This document shows, piece after piece, positions 1,370 through 47,948 of a stretch of 47,948 bases of DNA. The position numbers and the translations under genes are program-made. Position 1 is the stretch's first letter, and every line of letters begins with the position of its first letter. Source of the DNA: a virus; the IMG/VR virus record IMGVR_UViG_3300024252_000024, positions 1-47,948 of that record. One strand, 5' to 3'. The notes under the pieces are model-generated. The model was not told the origin of the DNA, ran no database searches, and saw nothing but the letters and a program-made list of their open reading frames with translations.

Positions 1370-1945
1370 TTACGTTACTACTGGCACCCAATTAGGAACC
1401 TGTGTTGTATCAATTATAACCCAATTAGGGTTGTCTATGGTAGGGGCATGTCCCTCTAATGCTAAAGCTCCAACTGGTGGAGATATTATTACTCCATCTA
1501 ATACTATTGGTGCTACTCCCGCTAATGCTAAAGCTCCAACTGGTGGAGATATTATTACTCCATCTAATACTATTGGTGCTACCCCTGCTAATGCTAAAGC
1601 CCCAACACTTGGAGTAATTATTGATGTTGAAGATACAGTTGGTGCTACTCCCGCTAATGCTAAAGCTCCAACACTTGGAGTAATAATATCTCCCACAACT
1701 ACACTAGGTGCTACCCCTGCTAATGCTAAAGCCCCAACACTTGGAGTTATTACTTTTCCCTCTAATACTGTCGGTGCTACTCCCGCTAATGCTAAAGCTC
1801 CAACACTTGGAGTAATAATATCTCCCACAACTACACTAGGTGCTACCCCACTAAGAGCCAATGCTCCTACTGGAGGTGTAATTACACACCCAAGCCCATA
1901 ACCAGCTGAGCTCCAAGGTCCTCGTCCCCAGCCGCAAGTAGCCAT
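1370..1945 (-). CDS. Virion/tail protein made of 22-residue repeats
   Basis: 191 residues. After a short N-terminus (MATCGWGRGPW) almost the whole chain is seven tandem 22-residue units with core PSVGALALAGVAP followed by a variable stretch (SVVVGDI, TVLEGKV, TVSSTSI or IVLDGVI). The C-terminus is a unique tail with NPNWVIIDTTQVPNWVPV. 'PxxGxLxLxGxAP' repeats occur in phage tail-tip and fibre-associated proteins, so a role in the fibre or host attachment is inferred. It sits between a virion paralogue and the tail-fibre gene. The repeat DNA leaves the opposite strand open for 156 codons, which is a by-product. Confidence 0.65.
   Translation of the reverse strand: MATCGWGRGPWSSAGYGLGCVITPPVGALALSGVAPSVVVGDIITPSVGALALAGVAPTVLEGKVITPSVGALALAGVAPSVVVGDIITPSVGALALAGVAPTVSSTSIITPSVGALALAGVAPIVLDGVIISPPVGALALAGVAPIVLDGVIISPPVGALALEGHAPTIDNPNWVIIDTTQVPNWVPVVT
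1443..1904 (-). repeat. Seven tandem 66-bp repeats
   Basis: Period is exactly 66 bases (22 codons). In plus-strand sense the conserved core is GCTAATGCTAAAGC(T/C)CCAAC followed by a variable segment of ~20 bases. The six units starting 1443-1773 are nearly identical in the core; the seventh (from 1839) diverges at its end. The variable segment occurs as a few discrete versions that recur in non-adjacent units (the version before 1700 recurs near 1826), implying unit shuffling. Confidence 0.9.
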
Positions 1946-3854: not shown

Positions 3855-4283
3855 CTATTCAAATCGAATAAGTGCTGTTGTTGCAGTGTTATCAGGTAAT
3901 GTTACAGTTAATGTTTGAGCTACAATAGTTTTAACTGATCCAAAATCTAATACACATACAGAATAATTACTAGAACTGCTATTATATATTAAAGCTCCTC
4001 TTGCGGAAAATGTGCCTGTCCAAGTAGTAGGAGAATCAAAAGTTATATACACTACGTCTGCAGTATCATCTTGTGTAACTGTAGCGCCTGTTAATGTATT
4101 ACCCCCAGCTACATACCCTGTGCCTACCACTTCATTTGTAGTTGTATATGCAGAGGTAGAAGAATCTAGCGTTGCGTCATCAGTATATAAAGCTATTTTA
4201 AATGTGTCGGTATCAAAATCTATATCACCAGCTAATGATTTAGCAACAAATGTATTAGTTATTCCTTGTATAATAGTTGCCAT
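3855..4283 (-). CDS. Virion-like protein
   Basis: 142 residues, beta-rich, Thr/Ala/Asp-rich. The pattern TNTFVAKSLAGDIDF, FKIALYTDDATL, TTNEVVGTGYVAGGNTLTG, then WTGTFSARGALIYN is common in phage structural modules. It is a paralogue of the 1956-2417 product, the two being split by the methyltransferase-DUF115 gene. Its ATG overlaps the stop of the upstream adaptor-like gene. Exact position in the particle is unknown. Confidence 0.6.
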   Translation of the reverse strand: MATIIQGITNTFVAKSLAGDIDFDTDTFKIALYTDDATLDSSTSAYTTTNEVVGTGYVAGGNTLTGATVTQDDTADVVYITFDSPTTWTGTFSARGALIYNSSSSNYSVCVLDFGSVKTIVAQTLTVTLPDNTATTALIRFE

Positions 4284-4948
4284 TAAACTGCACTCCCTCT
4301 TCTACCTTTAACAGGTATTCTAGCTTGTCCACTACGATAAGCATCACGAGTATTTTTACCTTCGCCTAGTCTAGTTAATTCTACTAGTGCTTGTTCATAT
4401 CTATTGGAGTAGTTTGCTATTGTTTCTGGGTCGGCTTTGAGGTACGTAGCTGCTTCCAACAATGAACCATAAAGTAATACGGAACTATAATTATCTCCCA
4501 GCCAAGACGTACCGCTAGCGGCAGTAGTAATAGACTCAGGATAAAAAAAGTAATGAAGCTCAGCGCCATAAGCTTTATCAGGTGTAGGACCGAGTATAAA
4601 TGTTGTATCATCGAAGACAGCATAATATTGTGGTTTTCCGTAGTGAGCTACATCAGTATCAGGAAATGATTGCCTAATAAAGTTAACGTCTTTATTTATA
4701 AGAAAAGTATACTCATTAGTTGTATTATCAATAGCCGCTAAACTATAAGTAGCTAGCCAATCGGCAGGCACATTTAAATATTTATTAGCGAAGTTAATAG
4801 TACCCGTATCATTTCTTCTTAAGTCTGGAAGATTAACCCCATTAAAGATTCTGTTTTCAGCTTGAGTTATAAACGTGTTTACATCTACTGTAGAGTATTC
4901 ATCTTCAGTATACGATTGTATTTGTGCGACTAGTTCTGCGTAAGTCAT
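4283..4948 (-). CDS. Head-tail adaptor-like / neck protein
   Basis: 221 residues. The helical N-terminus MTYAELVAQIQSYTEDEY, followed by ITQAENRIFNGVNLPDLRRND, then a beta segment YLNVPADWLATYSLAA and a C-terminal helical segment (LEAATYLKADPETIANYSNRYEQAL) match a layout often seen in podovirus structural modules and usually labelled adaptor or tail-tube-like. No enzymatic motif. It lies among neck and tail genes, consistent with a connector role. The annotation rests on family memory and context. Confidence 0.55.
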   Translation of the reverse strand: MTYAELVAQIQSYTEDEYSTVDVNTFITQAENRIFNGVNLPDLRRNDTGTINFANKYLNVPADWLATYSLAAIDNTTNEYTFLINKDVNFIRQSFPDTDVAHYGKPQYYAVFDDTTFILGPTPDKAYGAELHYFFYPESITTAASGTSWLGDNYSSVLLYGSLLEAATYLKADPETIANYSNRYEQALVELTRLGEGKNTRDAYRSGQARIPVKGRRGSAV

Positions 4949-4957
4949 AAACTATCC

Positions 4958-5137
4958 TTATGCCATTGGGCCACGAGCTTTTCTACCTTTAGTTGCTGCA
5001 CCATTGCCACGAGTTACTACGCCTGTTGTTTTAACATTTTTTTCAGGATAACCTGCAAAGTTAGGTACAGGTACATCTTGAGGTTGTACATACCCACCCT
5101 CCAATTTTGGTTTTCTTGTCTCGTTTTCTTTAGCCAT
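4958..5137 (-). CDS. Small basic protein with Gly/Lys-rich C-terminal tag
   Basis: 59 codons from an ATG with a well placed AGGAG (TTAGGAGAAAGAA before ATG). The sequence begins MAKENETRKPKLEGGYVQPQD and ends TRGNGAATKGRKARGPMA. The ending resembles the basic Gly-rich tags on the products at 5515, 7774 and 8416. No domain recognised. Placed between an adaptor-like gene and a zinc-ribbon gene in the virion run. Confidence 0.7.
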   Translation of the reverse strand: MAKENETRKPKLEGGYVQPQDVPVPNFAGYPEKNVKTTGVVTRGNGAATKGRKARGPMA

Positions 5138-5146
5138 TTCTTTCTC

Positions 5147-5515
5147 CTAAGTTATTGTTATTGTAACAGTTCCTACTACTCCTGAACTTACTAAATTATT
5201 TCCCGTAAACTCATTAGCTGGAGGTCTTGCTCCACCAATAGGTTCCCATCCCCATTGTATATCTCTTGACCCAGTTACGTTGTTGTCATTAAAACTTTGG
5301 TCAGGTCTTGGATCTCGCACTGCTTGAGGATCTTCTACTGGATACATCCCTTGCATATTCTGTGGTTGATCTGGGTTCCAACACTCTTTACAAGCTTTAA
5401 TATTAGTGTTAGTTTTTCTTACATATAAATCTTTTAGTTCTCTAAGCTTGAACTGAAAACCACAAACATCACAGTCTGCAATAGCATTCTTATTAGTGGT
5501 GTACTTGTTGCTCAT
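5147..5515 (-). CDS. Zinc-ribbon-like protein of the virion module
   Basis: 122 residues. A four-cysteine knuckle near the N-terminus (CDVCGFQFKLRELKDLYV then ACKECWNPD, i.e. CxxC...CxxC) suggests one bound zinc. The remainder is Pro/Asn-rich, with WGWEPIGGARP and a beta-like C-terminus ending VVGTVTITIT. ATGs and stops are coupled with the gene at 5515. A structural or packaging-associated role is inferred from location. Confidence 0.6.
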   Translation of the reverse strand: MSNKYTTNKNAIADCDVCGFQFKLRELKDLYVRKTNTNIKACKECWNPDQPQNMQGMYPVEDPQAVRDPRPDQSFNDNNVTGSRDIQWGWEPIGGARPPANEFTGNNLVSSGVVGTVTITIT

Positions 5516-5955
5516 TATTTGCTTCTTTGTTTAGCCCTAGTTTTACCACGAACAGCAATACCATCCATTCTACATTTACCTTTAACAGACCCACCTTTTT
5601 TAAATGTAAGCTTTCCAGTTAAAGGCTCACTCTTTCCCTCTTTTCGTAGTTGTCGAAGTGTTTTTGCTGATAAAGCTCTATCTTTTGCAGCTTCTTTTTT
5701 CATAAATTTTTCTATAGCTGCTGGACTAGGATCTGATTTCTTAGGTCTTTTTGCTATTACCTCTCCCACTTTTCCCATATACGGATGCTTAGTAACTTTT
5801 ACGCCGTCTTTTATAGTTGTTGTGGCTTTTGCTTTTGCGTGATCGCGTACAGCTTTTCTTTCTGTTCTAGTAAGGTCTTGGCCTACCTTTAACTTGTCCA
5901 TTATTTTTTTTGTTAGTGGCTTTAATAGTTTTTTCCCTGCTGCTGCTAAGCCCAT
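5515..5955 (-). CDS. Lys-rich virion-module protein with shared C-terminal tag
   Basis: 146 residues, strongly basic. The chain is helical and Lys-rich (GLAAAGKKLLKPLTKKIMDKL at the start, no membrane span) and ends KKGGSVKGKCRMDGIAVRGK then TRAKQRSK. The 'KKGGx...DGxAxxGkT' ending recurs in the proteins at 7774-8400 and 8416-8946, and in weaker form at 4958. Such proteins are common in marine phages but uncharacterised; DNA binding, decoration or ejection are possible. Confidence 0.65.
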   Translation of the reverse strand: MGLAAAGKKLLKPLTKKIMDKLKVGQDLTRTERKAVRDHAKAKATTTIKDGVKVTKHPYMGKVGEVIAKRPKKSDPSPAAIEKFMKKEAAKDRALSAKTLRQLRKEGKSEPLTGKLTFKKGGSVKGKCRMDGIAVRGKTRAKQRSK

Positions 5956-5956
5956 C

Positions 5957-6226
5957 TTATTTCCCCTTTAAATAATTTCTGTCTTTAATTACCATCCCAC
6001 CTTCTTTAAACTCAAATGTAACTGAGCCCCCATAACCTGATATTCCCGCGTCTGATCCCCAATCTCCTTTAGCTGCGTATCCCTGTATATAGGGTTCAAG
6101 AGTTACGTTGTCTGTAATAGGAAGTTGTGCCGTTGCTCGACCTCCTCCATATGTTGTGCCTTTGCGTCTTCCTCCTCCACCTTCAAGCTTTAACGACGAC
6201 TTTCTTTTTTTCTTTTTATCAGTCAT
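5957..6226 (-). CDS. Small Lys/Gly-rich protein, GGMVIKD tag
   Basis: 89 residues. N-terminus DKKKKRKSSLKLEGGGGRRKG, middle beta-like (LPITDNVTLEPYIQGYAAKGDWG), C-terminus KEGGMVIKDRNYLKGK. The last 16 residues are nearly identical to those of the neighbouring 6228-6455 product, so the two share a tag but not a body. Function unknown. Confidence 0.6.
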   Translation of the reverse strand: MTDKKKKRKSSLKLEGGGGRRKGTTYGGGRATAQLPITDNVTLEPYIQGYAAKGDWGSDAGISGYGGSVTFEFKEGGMVIKDRNYLKGK

Positions 6227-6227
6227 C

Positions 6228-6455
6228 TTATTTCCCCTTCAAATACTGTTTATCTTTAATTACCATTCCACCTTTTTTTAACCCGGCAATAGGAACTTCA
6301 AACAGCCCTAATCCTTGCTCGTATCTTGCTTCAGCTTCTGCTGCCTCCAAAGCTCTTTCTTTTTTAGTTTTTTTAACTTTTTTACTTTTTTTCGCTGCCG
6401 TCTTAAGAACTTTTGGAGCTATTTTTAATATGTTTCCTACTACTGCTGCACCCAT
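6228..6455 (-). CDS. Small Lys-rich protein, GGMVIKD tag
   Basis: 75 residues. Hydrophobic-basic N-terminus (GAAVVGNILKIAPKVLKTAAK), a KKSKKVKKTKKE patch, then C-terminus KKGGMVIKDKQYLKGK shared with the 5957-6226 product. The shared tag on different bodies suggests a targeting or assembly signal. Function unknown. Confidence 0.6.
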   Translation of the reverse strand: MGAAVVGNILKIAPKVLKTAAKKSKKVKKTKKERALEAAEAEARYEQGLGLFEVPIAGLKKGGMVIKDKQYLKGK

Positions 6456-6464
6456 TTTAATCTC

Positions 6465-7145
6465 CTATACGTATGATGTTCTTGGTGCTATGGTTAAAGT
6501 TGCTTTTTCTCTATCTTCAGTTGAAGCAAGTAACCATTGCTCTTCATATTCTGATTTTAACATTTGTATTCTTGGTGCTGCTTCCGGAATCTTAAGAGAC
6601 AGATAATAAGCTAGTCCCGCTACCATACAAGGTAAAAATCTAAATGGGATATGCTGCGTGTTTACGCCGGTACCTGCATCATCAATTCGTTTTAAATACC
6701 AATACACAAGCGTATAAGTACTATCATTAGGGACAGGCCACATCGTTACTGTTGGGATTGCCGCTTGTCTATCTATATAAACTTGTATCGGTCTGCCCGT
6801 GTCGTTCTTACTTGGGATAGATGCATAAGTAGGATTTGACACCCTAGAAATAGCTATGTCTGACTGAGTCGTTCCCGTCCCAGTTCTTATGACTTGACTC
6901 ATGAGGTCGATGGTAGTCGCGGGCAAATTGTAAGTGGCTGTACCAGCAACTAGTGGGATTGATCCTTGTTCAACAGTCCACAAATTTATGCCTCGGTTAG
7001 CCCACTCTATTGTAAGTAAATTTAAACTACGGGTTGCAGTTCTTAAATCATATCCTGTTCTTAACTCTGAACCACACCGTTCAAACGCTTCTTCTACAAG
7101 AAGGTTAAGGTCTAAATTAAATGCATGTGTGTTAGTTGTAGCCAT
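6465..7145 (-). CDS. P22 gp4-like head-tail adaptor candidate
   Basis: 226 residues. Layout: N-terminal helix (LDLNLLVEEAFERCGSELR), TATRSLNLLTIEWANRGINLW, a beta-sandwich-like middle (ATYNLPATTIDLMSQVI; PIQVYIDR; VTMWPVPNDS), and a C-terminal helical region with GLAYYLSLKIPEAAPRIQML. This matches the tail accessory factor family represented by P22 gp4, which binds beneath the portal. Consistent with the P22-type portal in the same module. No catalytic motif is visible. Confidence 0.65.
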   Translation of the reverse strand: MATTNTHAFNLDLNLLVEEAFERCGSELRTGYDLRTATRSLNLLTIEWANRGINLWTVEQGSIPLVAGTATYNLPATTIDLMSQVIRTGTGTTQSDIAISRVSNPTYASIPSKNDTGRPIQVYIDRQAAIPTVTMWPVPNDSTYTLVYWYLKRIDDAGTGVNTQHIPFRFLPCMVAGLAYYLSLKIPEAAPRIQMLKSEYEEQWLLASTEDREKATLTIAPRTSYV

Positions 7146-7200
7146 TATGTTTTCCTTGTTGTCCTTTTACGTCTAAGAGATGCGACTCTTCTTAGTTTAC

Positions 7201-7512
7201 CTACTTATATTGTCTCAACACTTCTGTTTCCACTACTTCTCTAAACATATCAGAACCAAAGACACTAAAGTCTCCATCCTTCCACTTAATGTTTATCATG
7301 TTGTCAGGTGTTACTGTCCAACATCCTTTAACGAAAGAGTGGTTAGTATTCTGTGCTGCTGCTCTAAAGCCCCTCTCATTATTATCACATGGAGTTTTAG
7401 CTAGCACTATCCTTGTATTGGGATTCAAATAATAAACTTGATATTGCCCTGCAAATACGATAGTGCTTATGAAGAGTAATACTACTAGCGTAATTTTTTT
7501 AAGATGCTGCAT
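7201..7512 (-). CDS. Secreted/periplasmic protein with signal peptide
   Basis: 103 residues. A clear N-terminal signal peptide: MQHLKK, hydrophobic ITLVVLLFISTIVFA, then cleavage near AGQYQ. The mature part is ~80 residues with two cysteines (TPCDNN... KGCWTV) that could form a disulfide. It starts at an ATG with AAGGGAGA upstream and overlaps the preceding 37-residue membrane protein. The lysis-like position (small membrane protein, secreted partner, holin-like nearby) suggests an envelope role such as a spanin part, but no lipobox is seen. Function not established. Confidence 0.6.
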   Translation of the reverse strand: MQHLKKITLVVLLFISTIVFAGQYQVYYLNPNTRIVLAKTPCDNNERGFRAAAQNTNHSFVKGCWTVTPDNMINIKWKDGDFSVFGSDMFREVVETEVLRQYK

Positions 7513-7598
7513 ACTTTCTCCCTTAGTACAACATATAAATCTCTACCATAAAATTCCCAAGTAATTGCACCACCTATAAACCATAATAAATACATCAT
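7485..7598 (-). CDS. Small membrane protein, 37 residues
   Basis: Begins MMYLLWFIGGAITWEFYGRD, with one short N-terminal hydrophobic helix, and ends VVLREKVCSILKKLR. Its start overlaps the upstream gene's stop and its 3' end overlaps the signal-peptide gene, carrying that gene's ribosome site. This tight coupling supports translation. An accessory lysis role is possible but unproven. Confidence 0.5.
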   Translation of the reverse strand: MMYLLWFIGGAITWEFYGRDLYVVLREKVCSILKKLR

Positions 7599-7774
7599 GC
7601 TTTTGGTTTCCTATGTCCATAACCTTTTTTCTTAAGCTCTAAATGCTTAGCTTTAGTGGGAGCTTTAACTGCTTTGCCCGTCTTCATATCATACATCATA
7701 TGCGATTTAAATACATCACCCCCAGCTTTCATCTTCTTAGGATTTACAATCCCCATTCCTCGGCAGCCTCGCAT
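7595..7774 (-). CDS. Small basic protein, 59 residues
   Basis: Begins MRGCRGMGIVNPKKMKAGGD and continues with SHMMYDMKTGKAVKAPTKAK to a C-terminus KKKGYGHRKPKA. Coupled to the upstream Lys-rich gene by TAATG. It carries the KAGG element typical of the neighbouring basic proteins. Function unknown; part of the basic small-protein set of this virion module. Confidence 0.65.
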   Translation of the reverse strand: MRGCRGMGIVNPKKMKAGGDVFKSHMMYDMKTGKAVKAPTKAKHLELKKKGYGHRKPKA

Positions 7775-8400
7775 TATCTAGCCCTTTTGGCTTTTGTGTG
7801 ACCTTTAATTGCGCAGCCATCAATCCTACCGCCTTTTTTAAACCCAGTCATGCTTGGTCTACTAGGTCCACGTTTTTTCAGATCAACTTTTGGATCTTTG
7901 TTTCTAGGTTTAGGTCCAGTACTTGGGGCTTTCATAGAAGTCATAGTCGGTCCTGAAGGTCCGCGTTTTTTTAGATCAACTTTCGGGTCTTTATTTCTAG
8001 GTTTAGGTCCAGTACTTGGAGCTTTCATAGAAGTCATTCTAGGTCCTGATTTAGATTTAGACTTAGATGCAGTAGACTTAGACTTAGATGCAGTAGATTT
8101 AGACTTAGATGCAGTAGACTTATCGTCTCTAAAGTATGTTCTTTTATTTTTAGCCTTTGCCCCAAAGCTACCTTTGTTATCAACATCCTTTTTCTTAAGT
8201 TTTTTGATTTCAGCGTCGGACAATCCTTTTTTCTTAAGTTTCTTTTCTGTTGTTTTATTAATCTTGCCATAGACTTTTAGTCCTGCATTCTTTTTGTTTT
8301 GCTTTTCAGCTTTCATGACTTCGTTGTTTAAGTCACTTTTTACTTTCTTCGCTTTTCTTTCTTTAATCTGTTGACGAAGTCTATCTTGTAGTGATGCCAT
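7774..8400 (-). CDS. Lys-rich repeat protein with shared C-terminal tag
   Basis: 208 residues, very basic. The first ~95 residues are helical and Lys-rich. Then come three STASKSK units, and then two copies of a 32-residue block with core MTSMKAPSTGPKPRNKDPK followed by VDLKKRGPS. The C-terminus is FKKGGRIDGCAIKGHTKAKR, matching the tag on the 5515 and 8416 products. No enzymatic domain. Low-complexity basic composition suggests nucleic-acid contact or a disordered virion component. Confidence 0.65.
   Translation of the reverse strand: MASLQDRLRQQIKERKAKKVKSDLNNEVMKAEKQNKKNAGLKVYGKINKTTEKKLKKKGLSDAEIKKLKKKDVDNKGSFGAKAKNKRTYFRDDKSTASKSKSTASKSKSTASKSKSKSGPRMTSMKAPSTGPKPRNKDPKVDLKKRGPSGPTMTSMKAPSTGPKPRNKDPKVDLKKRGPSRPSMTGFKKGGRIDGCAIKGHTKAKRAR
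7850..8110 (-). repeat. Tandem repeats inside the Lys-rich gene
   Basis: Two ~96-base copies encode the MTSMKAPSTGPKPRNKD block, followed (to ~8110) by three to four copies of an 18-21 base unit encoding STASKSK. Opposite-strand openness over this interval (7850-8272) is caused by the repeats. Confidence 0.8.
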
Positions 8401-8415
8401 TCTAGTTCTCCTCAG

Positions 8416-8946
8416 TTAAACCATACGACCACGGGTGTGACCTTTAGTAGCACATCCGTCTGCGCGTTTAGATGCTGAGCTAACTGTCCCGCCTTTTTTC
8501 ATTTTCTTACCTTTAGCTTTCATTATAGCGCCGCCGGCTTTATATCCTAATTCTTTTCTTTGCTTATCTATTCTTTTTTTGTTTTTTTTATCTGCTTTTC
8601 TCTTAGCGGCCCTTACTTCATCTGAATCAAAAAATCGTGTGCCACCTGGCTTAATACTTGAATCGAGAGGGGTAGTTTTTTTAACCTTACCACCTTTCCT
8701 CATTTTTAATTCACCAACTACGCGCTTCTTTTCAGCCATCAAATTATCTTTGCCTTTTCGAGTATAGGCTTTCTCATTATCTACTCTGCCTAATTCTTCA
8801 AGGCGGTTCATTCTTTTGGTATTCATGCTTTTCTCCTTAGTGAACTCTCGTCCAATTGATTGTTTAACGCCTACTTTTTTAGCAAACTCTGGGTTATTAG
8901 CCACTGCCTGCATAAACTTTTTCTGCTTTTTACTTTTTACGGGCAT
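8416..8946 (-). CDS. Lys-rich virion-module protein with shared C-terminal tag
   Basis: 176 residues. N-terminus MPVKSKKQKKFMQAVANNPE resembles small basic phage proteins that begin 'MPxKSKxQ++FM'. The body has several Lys-rich helices and KAGGAIMKAKGKKMKKGG, and ends KRADGCATKGHTRGRMV. The ending matches the tags at 5515 and 7774. ATG overlaps the stop of the holin-like gene. Function unknown. Confidence 0.65.
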   Translation of the reverse strand: MPVKSKKQKKFMQAVANNPEFAKKVGVKQSIGREFTKEKSMNTKRMNRLEELGRVDNEKAYTRKGKDNLMAEKKRVVGELKMRKGGKVKKTTPLDSSIKPGGTRFFDSDEVRAAKRKADKKNKKRIDKQRKELGYKAGGAIMKAKGKKMKKGGTVSSASKRADGCATKGHTRGRMV

Positions 8947-10691: not shown

Positions 10692-11627
10692 TTACGCACC
10701 GGGTGAACCCCACATACCGAGAGGATCGGACCAACCGAATGAATATCTTTCACGGGCTTTATATCTTACATTGCCAGTATCGAAATCACCATCCATCGAA
10801 GTTGTTAAAGCAGTTCTTTCAAAATGCTTCATACCGTTAGGCACGTCAGTAGTTAAGAAGTAAGCGTCACTATCAGTTAGATAGTGGTTTACTGTATAAC
10901 CTTCTGGTATTGCACCATTATTTCTTAATGCGTTAAGGTCGTTATCAGCTGTACCAACACGAAGTTGTGTGTCAAGCAAACGAGTAGCAACGAATTGAAG
11001 AGCTGGTGGAATAACCAACTTACGAGGTTTAGCTGCAATCAATAGACCTCTTTCATCAGTCCATGCTGCGATTTGAATCACTGCGTTTTCTAATGCTGTT
11101 TCGTTAAGGTCTGTTGGTGTTGCTTGTGTATTACTGTTAGTACCACCTGAAACTAATGGGTGATTTACTACCACATCAGGATTAGAGTTGTCATAACCAA
11201 ATAATGACACACCGTCACCACCAGCAAAAGCGCCATCAAAACCATTGTTAAGAACATTAGCTGCTCTAACTTGTTTTGTGTTCGCCATTGATCGTGCAAG
11301 AGCTTTAGTATAACGAGCTGAAAGACTATCATATAGATTATCTTCAACCGCTTCTTCAGTTAAACTGAAACCTAAAGCAATTGTTACGTGGTTGTATCTA
11401 GCTGTAAAAGCTTCTTGTGCGTTATCATACGCAATAGCTGCTCCCTCATTTTTCAGAGGTGCGGCTGCAAAGCCAGCTAGTTTTGTTTCTTCTTCAAAAG
11501 AACGATCAGAAGATTCAGTTTCGTAAATCTCTTTATGTTCTTCGCCATATTTCTCATATTCTAAACCGAATAGAGCGTTAAGGCCTGGTAATAGCTCCTT
11601 AAGGAGCTGGGCTCTTGAAATTGCCAT
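10692..11627 (-). CDS. Major capsid protein
   Basis: 311 residues. Opening AQLLKELLPGLNALFGLEYE, then YGEEHKEIYETESSDRSFEE, and a domain with ALGFSLTEEAVEDNLYD. The C-terminal part has RKLVIPPALQFVATRLLD and a final YSFGWSDPLGMWGSPGA. This is the pattern of Mu gpT-like/HK97-fold head subunits. It lies downstream of portal and scaffold genes and carries a strong terminator behind it, as highly expressed capsid genes often do. Family assigned from memory. Confidence 0.8.
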   Translation of the reverse strand: MAISRAQLLKELLPGLNALFGLEYEKYGEEHKEIYETESSDRSFEEETKLAGFAAAPLKNEGAAIAYDNAQEAFTARYNHVTIALGFSLTEEAVEDNLYDSLSARYTKALARSMANTKQVRAANVLNNGFDGAFAGGDGVSLFGYDNSNPDVVVNHPLVSGGTNSNTQATPTDLNETALENAVIQIAAWTDERGLLIAAKPRKLVIPPALQFVATRLLDTQLRVGTADNDLNALRNNGAIPEGYTVNHYLTDSDAYFLTTDVPNGMKHFERTALTTSMDGDFDTGNVRYKARERYSFGWSDPLGMWGSPGA

Positions 11628-42926: not shown

Positions 42927-43110
42927 TCCTGAATGGGTGTTGCCGTTTTCATCTATGGAACCAGGGGATAGTTTTTTTATTCCCACAGTAAAAGCGCCGG
43001 ATCTTTTGTATGCGATTGAAAGTGGGGCTAAAAGAGCAAAGGTAAGAGTAAAATCGTTAGTAGTAGTAGAGGGAGACTTGATGGGGGTTAGAACGTGGAT
43101 GCTTAGCTAG
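42910..43110 (+). CDS. Small conserved protein at the end of the early arm
   Basis: 66 residues: MRLHNDPEWVLPFSSMEPGD, then SFFIPTVKAPDLLYAIESG and AKRAKVRVKSLVVVEGD. Small beta-alpha-beta layout of a type often found in phages near primase genes. Its stop TAG overlaps the stop of the opposing giant gene as CTAG. Confidence 0.6.
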   Translation: MRLHNDPEWVLPFSSMEPGDSFFIPTVKAPDLLYAIESGAKRAKVRVKSLVVVEGDLMGVRTWMLS

Positions 43111-46100
43111 CTACCCATGTCTTTCCGAATTACTTTTTCAATTCTTTTGCCAAGAGTGATACCACCAACGCTATTATTCAATGAGTCTTCTGTAGTTTTA
43201 TAAGAACGTTTTAGAGAAGATCCGGTAATAGGGTTCGCGCTCCCTATGGTGCTTCTATTGAAATCATTTATCTTACTTTGCACTTCTCTCATCATATCAA
43301 AGTCGCCGTTCTTGCGGGCTAAATAAGCTGCTTTTAAAAGACCAGAACGTCTAGCATTAAAGTTTTTCTCTGCTTGTTTCATTGATTGATTACGCGCATA
43401 CTGTAAAGAGAGGTCTTCATTAGTAAACCCGAAGATTTGTAAGAATCCATCAAGTGGATTTAGCGGAGTTATTTCAGCACCTTTTCTGTTCACTGCTCCT
43501 TCGGTAGCATACCTTATGGCTTTCATAGGGTTACGTGCAAAGGCCGGTAGAGTCTGTTCTATGCCGCGATATATATTACCCCGTGCCATATCCTGTAATC
43601 CTCGATTAACGCTTAGACCATAAGAGAAGGAAGGTCCTAAACCTTGTTCTAATACATACGGCATAAGTCCAACTTCAGATATACGACGTGGATCTTCTCG
43701 CCAAATTAAGTTAGCAAACCCAGTACGCGATGCAATATCCACATTAAGTAGTTTATTAAGTGGGCCCCGGTATCCTATGTCTCCAAATATTTCTCGTGTA
43801 GATTCTTCAAAATCAAAAGGCTCATCTTCATCACCAAACATCGCATACATCATTTCTGCTAACGCTTGAGTAAATCCGTATAACGGTACCCCCTGTAATC
43901 CTGCAAAAGTAAACGAAGCACCGTAGATACCTAGTATTTGTTTTCTCGCTATGTTTCTTACTTCTTTAGATTCCCCTCGATAAGCATCGTTAAACGCTTT
44001 AAATAGTAAATGCAGCATTGCATGACCGTAACGTTTAAAGGTGAACATTACTTTACCAAAATCTTGTTGAAAGAATTTAGGGCCTATTTCAGGAAGCGCA
44101 GTACCATGTGACCTACGAGTAAACTCTCGTGATTTTTCTTCAGCCACTTCAAAGGAATCACCTTTCTCTTTAGCCGCTAAATACCCAGCGATGTAAGTTA
44201 CTTCTCGGTTCATTCGTTCTGTATTTTGAAACATCCAACCCATTAATGCATCAAACTTAGCTTTAGTACCCACAAAGTCTTTAGCATTTGTCTTACGCAT
44301 TTCAGTAAGTTCATATCCTACACCCCTACGAAACACACTATTATCTATTCCGGTTTTGTAAAGCTGTTGTAAGTCTTCTGGTAAATCTGTTCGTAGTTTA
44401 CCGTCTTTCATTCCAAAAGATTGATCTGGTAAAAAACCTCGGTTACTATCTTTGCCACCACCAAAGTAATAACTAAAAGCTTGCCCCATTACTCTATTAG
44501 CTGTACCAAACCCATACTCTGCAACAAGTGTTGGGTAGACAATAATAGCTAACTGAGTGGCGTTAACCAATGCAGAAGACACATTACCAGCAATAGAAGT
44601 AAGATAACTTAAGTAAGCAAACCTAGAAGATATTGGGCCGGCTACAGGGTTATGAAAAAAACTTTTAGAGTCTTCAAGTCTTTCCACAACTGAACTAAGC
44701 GAAGTTTGTAAGGAAGCGTCTTTGGGATTGGTGGGATCTAAATCTGCTTGCATCGTAGCGTTCTCAGTACCAACGTCTTTTATATTTTCATTAATCTCTG
44801 GAATATATTTTAGGTTAGCAACTTGAGTTGCCATACGTGCACCTAGATCGATAAAGCCACCTACTACGTCTTCTATGTAACCCCCTGTACCAATTCTTTG
44901 GCGTGACTGTTGCTTAATTGATTGAGACGGAAGAGCATCTAAAAATAACCCAGCCACTTCTTTAATCACAGCCTCGTCTACTACAGGTTTTCCCTCTTCA
45001 TCTGTTTTTTGTAAAATGCTTGTTACTTCCTGCATTATGCCAACAGCCCCTTCACCACTTACTCTAAATGATTTATTCTCAGGATCTATTTCTGCTTTTA
45101 GTACAGTAATCCCGTCAGCGCTTTCTTGTCGAATAGCCGCTTCTACATACGCCGCTTTAGTTTCATACCTTGAAGTTTGAACTAAAGGTTGATACCTCTT
45201 AAACTCTTGTGCTTTTCTAAATGCTTTTTGATCCTTAGACTCATCAGAGTTTTCTATTTGCTCCATGATTTCATTGTGTTCAGCTAAATCTTTCTCTGAG
45301 ACGTAAGATAAAACATAATCCCCACGTCGTCTAAACGGATGATAAAACTTTAATCTGTTTTCAGTAAATTCTTTTACTACTCTTTCCACTACTTCTTGAG
45401 CAGTCTCATCTTTTTGAACAGCTTTTTCTGCCGCAGTTTTGTATGCGTCTAACAAGTTGTTGCCGTATTGCTCGAACTTTTCAGTGTATGCTATAGATAA
45501 TGCTTGAAGCTCTGGTGGTAAATTAAAAAACTTTATTACGTCAGGATCAGTAAAATTAGCTTGATCTCTTGGGTCAATATCTCGTTCTGAAAGTTTGTAA
45601 GTCGTTTGCTCCCAAGTTTTTAACTGCCCATCTGTATACTTTCTACTTGTTGTTTTATCTGTCAGAACAACTTGCCCGTTATCATCTATTTTAACTTGTC
45701 CAGTTTTTTCGTCGTAGTCAATAAGTCGTCGTTCTTTTCCTTGAATAACATCCATACCTAAATTACCTAAGACATCTACTTCTGCACGTGTGGTCTCTAC
45801 TTCTGCCGCACGGCGTTCTAACGTGTTCATAAGTTTTTTAATGCTTGGTAAATACTTATCATACAAATCAACCATAGCTTGTAGACCTAACATACCGGTC
45901 CAGGCTTTTTTAATCCATGTAGGTAATTCTAAAACTTTTTGCCAAACACCATCTATGTAATCTTTTGTAGGAAGAGGTAGTTTCTGTTGCAAGTCACCTG
46001 CATATTTAAACAACGCATTGTCTTGTGTAGGGTTAACTCCACCTGGAGGATTCTCTTTAGAGAACTGAATGTTTTTATTATCTACTCTTGATTCTTGAGT

Positions 46101-47948
46101 TGTTTTACTTTTTGGCGAAACTGATTCACGTTGTTGCTCTCGTCGTTCTGCTGTAGCTTCTACATTTTTAGACATCTGTACAGCTGGAGTATCTGATGTA
46201 CTTGATGCCAGTGACTTACCAGTATTCTCTGCTAGAGAAACTCTTAAAGAGTTTAAGATCATGTCTTGTATGTCAACGTCGCTAAAACGATTGACGTCGT
46301 ATATCCCCAACCTGCGTAAAAAGTTTTTGACTGCACCTACCATGCGTCTAAACAATGTGTTGTTAGGAGATTTTTCGCCTAGCTTAGCCATGACCTCTTG
46401 TAAGAAAGGCTTACTGTCTACTTCAAATTCTGGGTACAGCTCTTGCACTTCACCAAAGAGCGCATCTATATCTGCGTTTTGTTTTCTTAATGTTTTGAGA
46501 CGGTTAAGTAGAGGCATGTAGTCTTTGCCTACCATTTTCTCTAATCCATAATGCTCACCTATCTCATGTAATAATATGCGACGCCCTTGACCTTTTTGTA
46601 TACGGTCAGCTACTAAATAAGATATGCCTGAGTTATTATCAAAGGCTCCATTAGCCGTTGAAGACATAGTAATGTTAGCAGGCAGTTGACTTACGTTGTC
46701 TACAATAACTAACTTACCTTTTTCTATCATCTTATTAATGTTGTTACCAAACTCTTTTACAAGGTCTGCTAATACTGTCGCTGCAGTTTGTCCTGTGCCT
46801 TCTGTTTCAGTTCGTGATTCTTGTATGTTGTCTTGGGCAGGTGTAGCGGTTTGAGTTTGCTCTTGTGTGGGCTTAACGTCTTTATATTTTTTTATAAATC
46901 TTTCTAGTTGTTTTATTTCACGTTGAAGATTTTTTACGTCTAGAGCAAAATCTTTTTCTTGACCCGCAAAGTCTTTTAGATTCTCTACCTCTTTATCTAA
47001 TAGATGCTCAGCTTCTTTGATTATATACTCATCTGTATACGCCGAAGTTTGATTTATCGCTTCTTCTAAAGACCTAGCATTATTATAAGAGTCTCCAAGT
47101 CCTTGATAATTATCTGCTGCATCAACGTCCATAAATTGTACTCGTAGCGCATCAACCTTTACCGCGTCTTTAATAATTGGTCTTACTTTCTTTGTAGTTT
47201 GTTGTGTAGGTTTGCCTTCAAAGGTATACGTTTTAGGGGGAGCAGTTCGTGATTCTTGAAACCCTAGCTCCCCATCAATTTGATCTACAAGTTGTCCCGT
47301 CAGTTCTCCATCTTCTTTTGCCTCTCTTAAGCGTTGTTTATTTTCAGAACTTAGTTTAGCAAAAGGAATCTCCGATATAGACATTTCTTCCCAAGCTTCT
47401 TCAACTGTTTCTTCTAATGCAGGATTGACGACATCCGCTCGCTCTCCAGTTGGTGAAACAGGACCAGTATCGACTTCCACTTTTCCTCCGACAGGACTTC
47501 CAAGTTCGGCGGCAGTTTCGCCGGTAGCGGATTCGAGAGGTAACGCATCGCTTCCTCTAATAATTTTATTTCTGTCAACGGCATCAATAGTTGTGGGTTC
47601 ATCTTGGATTGTCTCCTGTGGTGGTTCATAATTAATTTGTTCTATTTCATCTAGCCCATTGTAATACGCTATACCTTCTTCAATTGTCATACCTTCTGGA
47701 GGTCTAAACCCTTCATATGGAAGTTCTATATCTGCCTCATCATCGTCGTCTACCTCTTTCACGGCTTCTGCTACAAGTTCTTCTCTTACTTTTGTCCATT
47801 TATTAGTTTTAGGGTTGTAATTAAAAACTTCTCTAACACTAACAGCTTGCCCTTCTATCATTTTTTCTGATATTTTTATAGCTTCTTTAAATTCTTCTTG
47901 AATATCTGGTTTAATTATTGTAAGCCCTTGTATGTCCGCCGCCTCTTT
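43107..47948 (-). CDS. Giant virion-associated/polyvalent-type protein, 5' end beyond window
   Basis: At least 1613 codons: an ATG at 47861 opens 1584 residues, but the frame stays open for 29 more codons to the edge, so the true start is outside. Numbering from 47861: residues 1-270 charged and flexible; ~285-330 coiled coil; ~425-440 LLHEIGEHYGLEKMVG, zincin-like although H-E-x3-H rather than HExxH; ~1085-1120 hydrophobic helices (SSALVNATQLAIIVYPTLVA); ~1190-1260 charged, with FGKVMFTFKRYGHAMLHLLF; ~1305-1345 hydrophobic. Resembles large polyvalent/internal virion proteins that are ejected with the DNA. Role inferred. Confidence 0.65.
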   Translation of the reverse strand, partial: KEAADIQGLTIIKPDIQEEFKEAIKISEKMIEGQAVSVREVFNYNPKTNKWTKVREELVAEAVKEVDDDDEADIELPYEGFRPPEGMTIEEGIAYYNGLDEIEQINYEPPQETIQDEPTTIDAVDRNKIIRGSDALPLESATGETAAELGSPVGGKVEVDTGPVSPTGERADVVNPALEETVEEAWEEMSISEIPFAKLSSENKQRLREAKEDGELTGQLVDQIDGELGFQESRTAPPKTYTFEGKPTQQTTKKVRPIIKDAVKVDALRVQFMDVDAADNYQGLGDSYNNARSLEEAINQTSAYTDEYIIKEAEHLLDKEVENLKDFAGQEKDFALDVKNLQREIKQLERFIKKYKDVKPTQEQTQTATPAQDNIQESRTETEGTGQTAATVLADLVKEFGNNINKMIEKGKLVIVDNVSQLPANITMSSTANGAFDNNSGISYLVADRIQKGQGRRILLHEIGEHYGLEKMVGKDYMPLLNRLKTLRKQNADIDALFGEVQELYPEFEVDSKPFLQEVMAKLGEKSPNNTLFRRMVGAVKNFLRRLGIYDVNRFSDVDIQDMILNSLRVSLAENTGKSLASSTSDTPAVQMSKNVEATAERREQQRESVSPKSKTTQESRVDNKNIQFSKENPPGGVNPTQDNALFKYAGDLQQKLPLPTKDYIDGVWQKVLELPTWIKKAWTGMLGLQAMVDLYDKYLPSIKKLMNTLERRAAEVETTRAEVDVLGNLGMDVIQGKERRLIDYDEKTGQVKIDDNGQVVLTDKTTSRKYTDGQLKTWEQTTYKLSERDIDPRDQANFTDPDVIKFFNLPPELQALSIAYTEKFEQYGNNLLDAYKTAAEKAVQKDETAQEVVERVVKEFTENRLKFYHPFRRRGDYVLSYVSEKDLAEHNEIMEQIENSDESKDQKAFRKAQEFKRYQPLVQTSRYETKAAYVEAAIRQESADGITVLKAEIDPENKSFRVSGEGAVGIMQEVTSILQKTDEEGKPVVDEAVIKEVAGLFLDALPSQSIKQQSRQRIGTGGYIEDVVGGFIDLGARMATQVANLKYIPEINENIKDVGTENATMQADLDPTNPKDASLQTSLSSVVERLEDSKSFFHNPVAGPISSRFAYLSYLTSIAGNVSSALVNATQLAIIVYPTLVAEYGFGTANRVMGQAFSYYFGGGKDSNRGFLPDQSFGMKDGKLRTDLPEDLQQLYKTGIDNSVFRRGVGYELTEMRKTNAKDFVGTKAKFDALMGWMFQNTERMNREVTYIAGYLAAKEKGDSFEVAEEKSREFTRRSHGTALPEIGPKFFQQDFGKVMFTFKRYGHAMLHLLFKAFNDAYRGESKEVRNIARKQILGIYGASFTFAGLQGVPLYGFTQALAEMMYAMFGDEDEPFDFEESTREIFGDIGYRGPLNKLLNVDIASRTGFANLIWREDPRRISEVGLMPYVLEQGLGPSFSYGLSVNRGLQDMARGNIYRGIEQTLPAFARNPMKAIRYATEGAVNRKGAEITPLNPLDGFLQIFGFTNEDLSLQYARNQSMKQAEKNFNARRSGLLKAAYLARKNGDFDMMREVQSKINDFNRSTIGSANPITGSSLKRSYKTTEDSLNNSVGGITLGKRIEKVIRKDMGS

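Follow-up and report, generated by a model that had tools for sequence, protein, structure and literature searches.

The virus analyzed here, an IMG/VR virus record of 47,948 bases (hereinafter the window), encodes several small basic proteins whose bodies are unrelated but which end in closely similar peptides. Across public viral contigs such endings are interchangeable tags: they are held at protein C-termini, conserved as peptides, exchanged between bodies that are hypervariable, and confined to the virion module. We lean, if only somewhat, towards the view that they are disordered C-terminal sorting tags for hypervariable virion cargo, loaded by a receptor in a mode resembling that of the T4 capsid targeting sequence (CTS). 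The first-pass annotation, which had suggested that the endings direct incorporation into the particle, bind DNA or serve as protease sites, is partly supported.

The left half of the window carries on the minus strand a structural block coding for a terminase, a portal, a GroES homologue, a scaffold candidate, the major capsid protein (10692..11627, minus strand) and two SU10-type adaptors (SU10_adaptor, PF24175), namely adaptor 1 (6465..7145, minus strand) and adaptor 2 (4283..4948, minus strand); the right half codes for replication genes on the plus strand. The reported tagged proteins are located between the capsid gene and adaptor 2. Adaptor 1 is the syntenic anchor of the tag cassette, adaptor 2 a second one, and the capsid gene, on which the lineage tree was also built, the upstream one. 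All ORFs and endings listed in the first-pass annotation are present, with the ORF calling being mechanical, so that some starts and body lengths are uncertain. Three basic proteins, all on the minus strand, share the DGxAxxGxT ending: T1 (8416..8946, 176 aa), which combines an N-terminal module with the type A tag RADGCATKGHTRGRMV (8416..8502, from KKGG to the stop) and ends in MKKGGTVSSASKRADGCATKGHTRGRMV; T2 (7774..8400, 208 aa, with internal repeats), which ends in FKKGGRIDGCAIKGHTKAKRAR and has the tag KKGGRIDGCAIKGHTKAKRAR (7774..7839); and T3 (5515..5955, 146 aa), which ends in FKKGGSVKGKCRMDGIAVRGKTRAKQRSK and has the type B tag KKGGSVKGKCRMDGIAVRGKTRAKQRSK (5515..5601). The ending of a fourth, the 59-aa type D protein T4 (4958..5137, minus strand; ends TRGNGAATKGRKARGPMA), had been called a weaker form. 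Its tag RGNGAATKGRKARGPMA (4958..5011, minus strand), of the form RGNGAATKG, is indeed related; however, it is no decayed copy but the local copy of a conserved ortholog found just before adaptor 2, the invariant columns of which comprise the tag only (R-G-x-G-A-A-x-x-G). The shared ending of the 89-aa (5957..6226, minus strand; ends KEGGMVIKDRNYLKGK) and 75-aa (6228..6455, minus strand; ends KKGGMVIKDKQYLKGK) proteins is likewise real and constitutes a separate YLKGK tag, which is exactly C-terminal in all 18 distinct occurrences, on several bodies. Also between the adaptors (5147-5515, minus strand) is a conserved Cys-rich protein (CDVCGF...CKECW) present in 17 of the 17 genomes compared.

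We searched public viral contigs with DNA coding patterns in which the tag residues were fixed and the position was left open; accordingly, terminal location, neighborhood and body diversity are free of the regular expressions. In the window itself DGxAxxGxT forms the C-termini of three proteins and is absent elsewhere in all six frames, and the coding pattern DGxAx[K/R]GxT has three matches as against 0.01 expected from dinucleotide shuffles, each near the end of one of the ORFs of T1, T2 and T3. Among the in-frame matches to DGCAx[KR]GxT[KR]G listed (96, with a stop), exactly 3 residues separate the end of the match from the stop in 82, and in all 35 matches to RGxGAAx[KR]GxxFxG the gap is 0–2 residues; for most of the DGIA-type matches listed it is 0–5 residues, and another group has a gap of 10–19. 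The general motif has at least 628 distinct contexts. In 607 of them it lies no more than 25 residues from the C-terminus and in 9 it is close to the N-terminus; the other 12 are internal and mostly fall in the C-terminal region. The sole clear N-terminal use is that of one small protein family, which accounts for 8 of the 9 N-terminal contexts: its 61–62 aa members bear the tag core at their N-terminus (MAYTRSADGIAKKGKTEGKNLGDSGP; L093 4378-4566, L118 9258-9446, L167 5948-6133 and five others). The suggested role as a protease site finds no support, with the motif lying mostly 0–5 residues from the stop and no protease family turning up among the structural genes scanned.

The first-pass annotation had allowed that the endings might be simple Lys/Gly bias with no positional conservation. 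Shuffling residues within 590 tagged tails, with composition kept, gives 0.025 matches as against 550 observed, which rules out such bias as the source of the tags, and the C-terminal position is strict. In 20 long records there are 46 tag matches and none to a reversed control pattern. One could nevertheless see the endings as nucleic-acid-binding tails, i.e., basic Gly-rich C-termini that condense or neutralize packaged DNA with no specific protein receptor, a reading that we regard as unlikely. Consistent with it, the bodies are basic (median net charge +7 per 100 aa vs 0.8 for all ORFs over 100 aa), the tags are rich in K/R and G, and one tagged body shows a weak likeness to a histone-like nucleoprotein. 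Yet charge would not need so strict a terminal position or such strong conservation at non-basic residues (A 96%, T about 100%, G/A at position 10; invariance at residues fixed by the regular expressions being partly by construction), and one G-x-A-x-[KR]-G core is common to several tag types whose flanks differ. DNA binding by the tag, as had been proposed, is thus possible but a poor account of the strict terminal position. A reading of the tags as Walker A/P-loop motifs (GxxxxGK[ST]) was also rejected: it is a chance fit to many A/B tags, and the tail is unstructured rather than a folded NTPase domain. In about 17% the K of this pattern is replaced by R, H, L or F, and types C and D lack it.

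At least 650 distinct tagged proteins yielded 599 bodies of at least 30 aa, which fall into 217 single-linkage clusters including 159 singletons; this clustering merges some unrelated low-complexity bodies, as in one cluster of 160, and 217 therefore errs, if at all, on the low side. The earlier proposal that the bodies differ and the tags are interchangeable therefore holds, with the same tags found on unrelated bodies, and whole-protein homology as the cause of the shared endings is ruled out. A Pfam scan of 97 representative tagged proteins gave a strong match for one to DUF6321 and for another to LysM. The DUF6321-type domain occurs with a tag in several contigs and untagged in the phages HTVC027P and DSL-LC04, in which the protein has nothing after it, and so the tag is an add-on. 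No Pfam, PHROG or PDB family or structure describes the tag itself, matches being mostly to bodies (DUF6321, LysM and the N-terminal module of T1). The PDB has no match for T1 or for a profile of the 97 tagged proteins, and comparison of the major capsid protein, adaptor 1, the Cys-rich 5147-5515 protein and T1 with solved structures gave no useful match. The tagged LysM protein (L303 6973-8154, plus strand), with its peptidoglycan-binding domain (2e-13), is the only tagged body with a clear hint of function.

The proposed check that the tags be confined to virion modules bears out the first-pass annotation: homologues of the window's core structural genes are also present on 266 of the 277 stretches in which the patterns found a tagged ORF, and on stretches with adaptor 1 all 440 tagged ORFs are on its strand, 436 of them within 3 kb. 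In genomes read over most of their length, we found no tag in parts lacking structural genes. Two outlier tags come after a large tail-region gene; in the case tested there is a PHROGs match to a virion structural family, and its block also has a match to a DNA ejection protein. A P22 gp10-like identity for the 720-aa protein preceding the outlier tags was not confirmed by Pfam, and PHROGs identifies it as a virion structural protein. In the sister group of phages, most type C tags adjoin the portal gene or fall between the capsid gene and adaptor 1. In each of the 17 genomes compared, the 3.5 kb preceding adaptor 1 hold 1–5 genes with A/B tags, adding up to 47. A cassette body has homologues in a mean of 1.0 of the 16 other genomes, and 33 of the 47 have none there, while about 16 of the 16 share the neighboring adaptor 1, 5147 protein, adaptor 2 and 3855 protein.

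This genomic setting bears on two further alternatives. The tagged proteins might be connector or tail assembly factors, with the tag docking on the portal or adaptor during assembly only and not retained in the virion. The clustering of tagged genes at adaptor 1, at adaptor 2 and, for type C, at the portal gene would be expected of such factors, but the sequences of assembly factors tend to be conserved, unlike the bodies here, most of which occur in a single genome, and a genome has several of these proteins; hence, we deem this improbable. Less probable still is a function of the tag inside the host, such as that of a degron or host-protein docking motif, with the virion operon merely setting late expression. 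Being terminal, disordered and linear, the tags would be typical of degrons and docking motifs; however, they are confined to the structural block in phages of different hosts and habitats, and an effect on the host that comes only late is less expected for so many bodies.

Within contigs, codon agreement at the fixed tag residues is 46% as compared to 40% expected from pooled usage. With synonymous codons near-randomized, most tags must be old and kept as peptides, indicating that selection acts on the peptide; recent duplication as the sole cause is ruled out for most pairs by their synonymous divergence. Exchange of the tag DNA itself is apparent in one genome (L374 11779-14415), where three neighboring tandem genes with unrelated bodies have identical tag DNA running through the stop into the overlapping start of the next gene. 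At 36–156 bases upstream identity is mostly at chance level, with one of the three pairs partly identical at 36–96 bases. Identical tag DNA on three unrelated genes means that tags also move by recombination, and the arrangement in this genome suggests that recombination at tag junctions creates new cassette genes. One might go further and treat the tag DNA as a recombination handle or selfish unit, with the peptide incidental. This trio and the 10 of 482 within-contig pairs that are at least 93% identical in the tag core fit such a notion, but it is largely refuted by most within-contig pairs, which differ at synonymous sites while keeping the peptide, and we give it hardly any credence.

The tag is used by a large group of short-tailed phages that is apparently uncultured. 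SU10 adaptors are present in 19 of 20 long records, and they lie beside the tagged cassette together with a homologous structural block, placing these viruses in the SU10-adaptor short-tailed lineage. In the capsid-protein tree the A/B-tag genomes fall almost wholly within one fully supported clade of 44 rows, with none of the five named phages of the tree inside it; one tagged record (G018) lies outside, and the untagged rows within are mostly short stretches. A stricter pattern retrieved only three contigs from an 84,980-species collection of bacterial and archaeal genomes, all from metagenome-assembled or uncultured genomes. A tblastn search of 50,697 phage records with short tag queries, which is insensitive for 25-residue queries, recovered only the cultured Pelagibacter phage HTVC023P (E about 6), and the tag is likely absent from other named phages. 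Like the window virus, HTVC023P has tagged proteins in its structural block, gp32 and gp51, with the type C endings RGVGAAIRGHKFIGVK and RGGGAAVRGMGFKGVF; unlike it, it has only type C tags and lies outside the A/B-tag capsid clade, and both proteins are annotated as hypothetical. Several observations count against the sorting-tag reading: the CTSs known are N-terminal and the present tags mostly C-terminal, the untagged relatives HTVC027P, CRP-902 and DSL-LC04 build their particles without the cassette, and no receptor gene specific to tagged genomes stood out, the core structural genes being common to untagged relatives. Literature searches with motif strings and DUF6321 found no description of the tags and no paper on DUF6321.

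T1 shows how the tag is combined with other modules. Refining the first-pass description, this protein also starts with a shared module of about 36 aa (MPVKSKKQKKFMQAVANNPEFAKKVGVKQSIGREFT; 8839..8946, minus strand), and in a structure model based on 46 homologues the module is confidently helical (pLDDT 83–91 over residues 1–30) and the tag tail unstructured (pLDDT 45–52). The module (MPxKSKKQxxFMxAVANNPxFAKKVG) is mobile, occurring alone (44–58 aa), fused to many tails, in phiKZ-like and 121Q-like jumbo phages, and at the start of proteins of families annotated as virion structural. In 153 ORFs the module is present with 75 aa or more following its start; near their C-terminus 104 of these bear the strict tag, and the number rises to 146 when relaxed forms are included. 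The module looks like a second exchangeable virion module. In a fold search with the T1 model only this module aligned, to phage proteins, with none at E <= 0.001.

Restricted almost entirely to the ends of proteins and to one gene block, the motif is attached to unrelated bodies and persists longer than they do, a pattern best explained by a sorting signal. Since that block builds the particle, it is to the particle that the proteins are likely sent. The tag probably directs proteins into the particle, as the genomic context and the analogy with T4 internal proteins favor. Accordingly worded as a model, the tags would be a family of short, disordered, C-terminal linear motifs of one SU10-type-adaptor lineage, with a G-x-A-x-[K/R]-G core often following a KxGG stretch. 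Each genome would maintain in its virion operon a cassette of small basic proteins which retain the tag even as their bodies turn over fast. The tag would be bound by a conserved component of the virion, located perhaps at the portal/adaptor vertex, which would load these proteins into the assembling particle, from which they could pass into the host along with the DNA. We infer a virion destination, a receptor in the connector or capsid and cargo acting early in infection.

The T4 CTS is cleaved by the prohead protease, and to our knowledge all CTSs are N-terminal. Encapsulins and similar shells load unrelated cargo via short, disordered, C-terminal peptides; the present tags differ from these in motif, occur without an encapsulin gene and belong to a phage virion rather than a compartment. 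The internal proteins of T-even phages are a diverse set sharing only a conserved CTS (PMC3012670). Like the CTS, the tags are short peptides common to diverse, hypervariable bodies (PMC3012670), but they are mostly C-terminal (607 of at least 628 contexts) where the CTS is N-terminal, are of other sequence and from another phage lineage, and their packaging is predicted. In P1, a terminal segment of up to 30 residues similarly sends proteins to the capsid, with 30 residues of DarB being enough for loading a reporter (PMC9024508). However, the signals of the Dar proteins are N-terminal with no common consensus, as against the many proteins with one C-terminal motif here. Being C-terminal and unrelated in sequence, the tags are not filed under the T4 or P1 signal families.

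Should the tag be a packaging signal, it would be a C-terminal counterpart to those N-terminal signals and would allow proteins carried in the virion, and probably injected, to be picked out by a sequence rule in uncultured viruses, most of them without a recognizable family; the choice of internal proteins by short-tailed phages would become directly testable. A bolder conjecture, which we offer tentatively and with some doubt, is that of a lineage-wide cargo-loading code, in which one receptor for the terminal peptide serves a recombining, hypervariable effector cassette injected at the start of infection, the tag marking an open set of counter-defense or takeover proteins.

Elsewhere in the window, a 1584-aa protein (43107-47861, minus strand), the C-terminal half of which matches a DarB-like antirestriction family (8e-64), is a probable large virion-internal protein and has none of the tags. 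Several small proteins of the block that holds the tagged genes begin with an RGMG motif (MRGCRGMG, MASRGMG, MAGRGMGCATRGGG) in the window (7595-7774, minus strand), in L195 (27448-27732 and 28658-28885) and in L189; these starts are possibly a related N-terminal form of the tag. At the left end of the structural block (1370-1945, minus strand) is a protein made of repeated IITPSVGALALAGVAP units.
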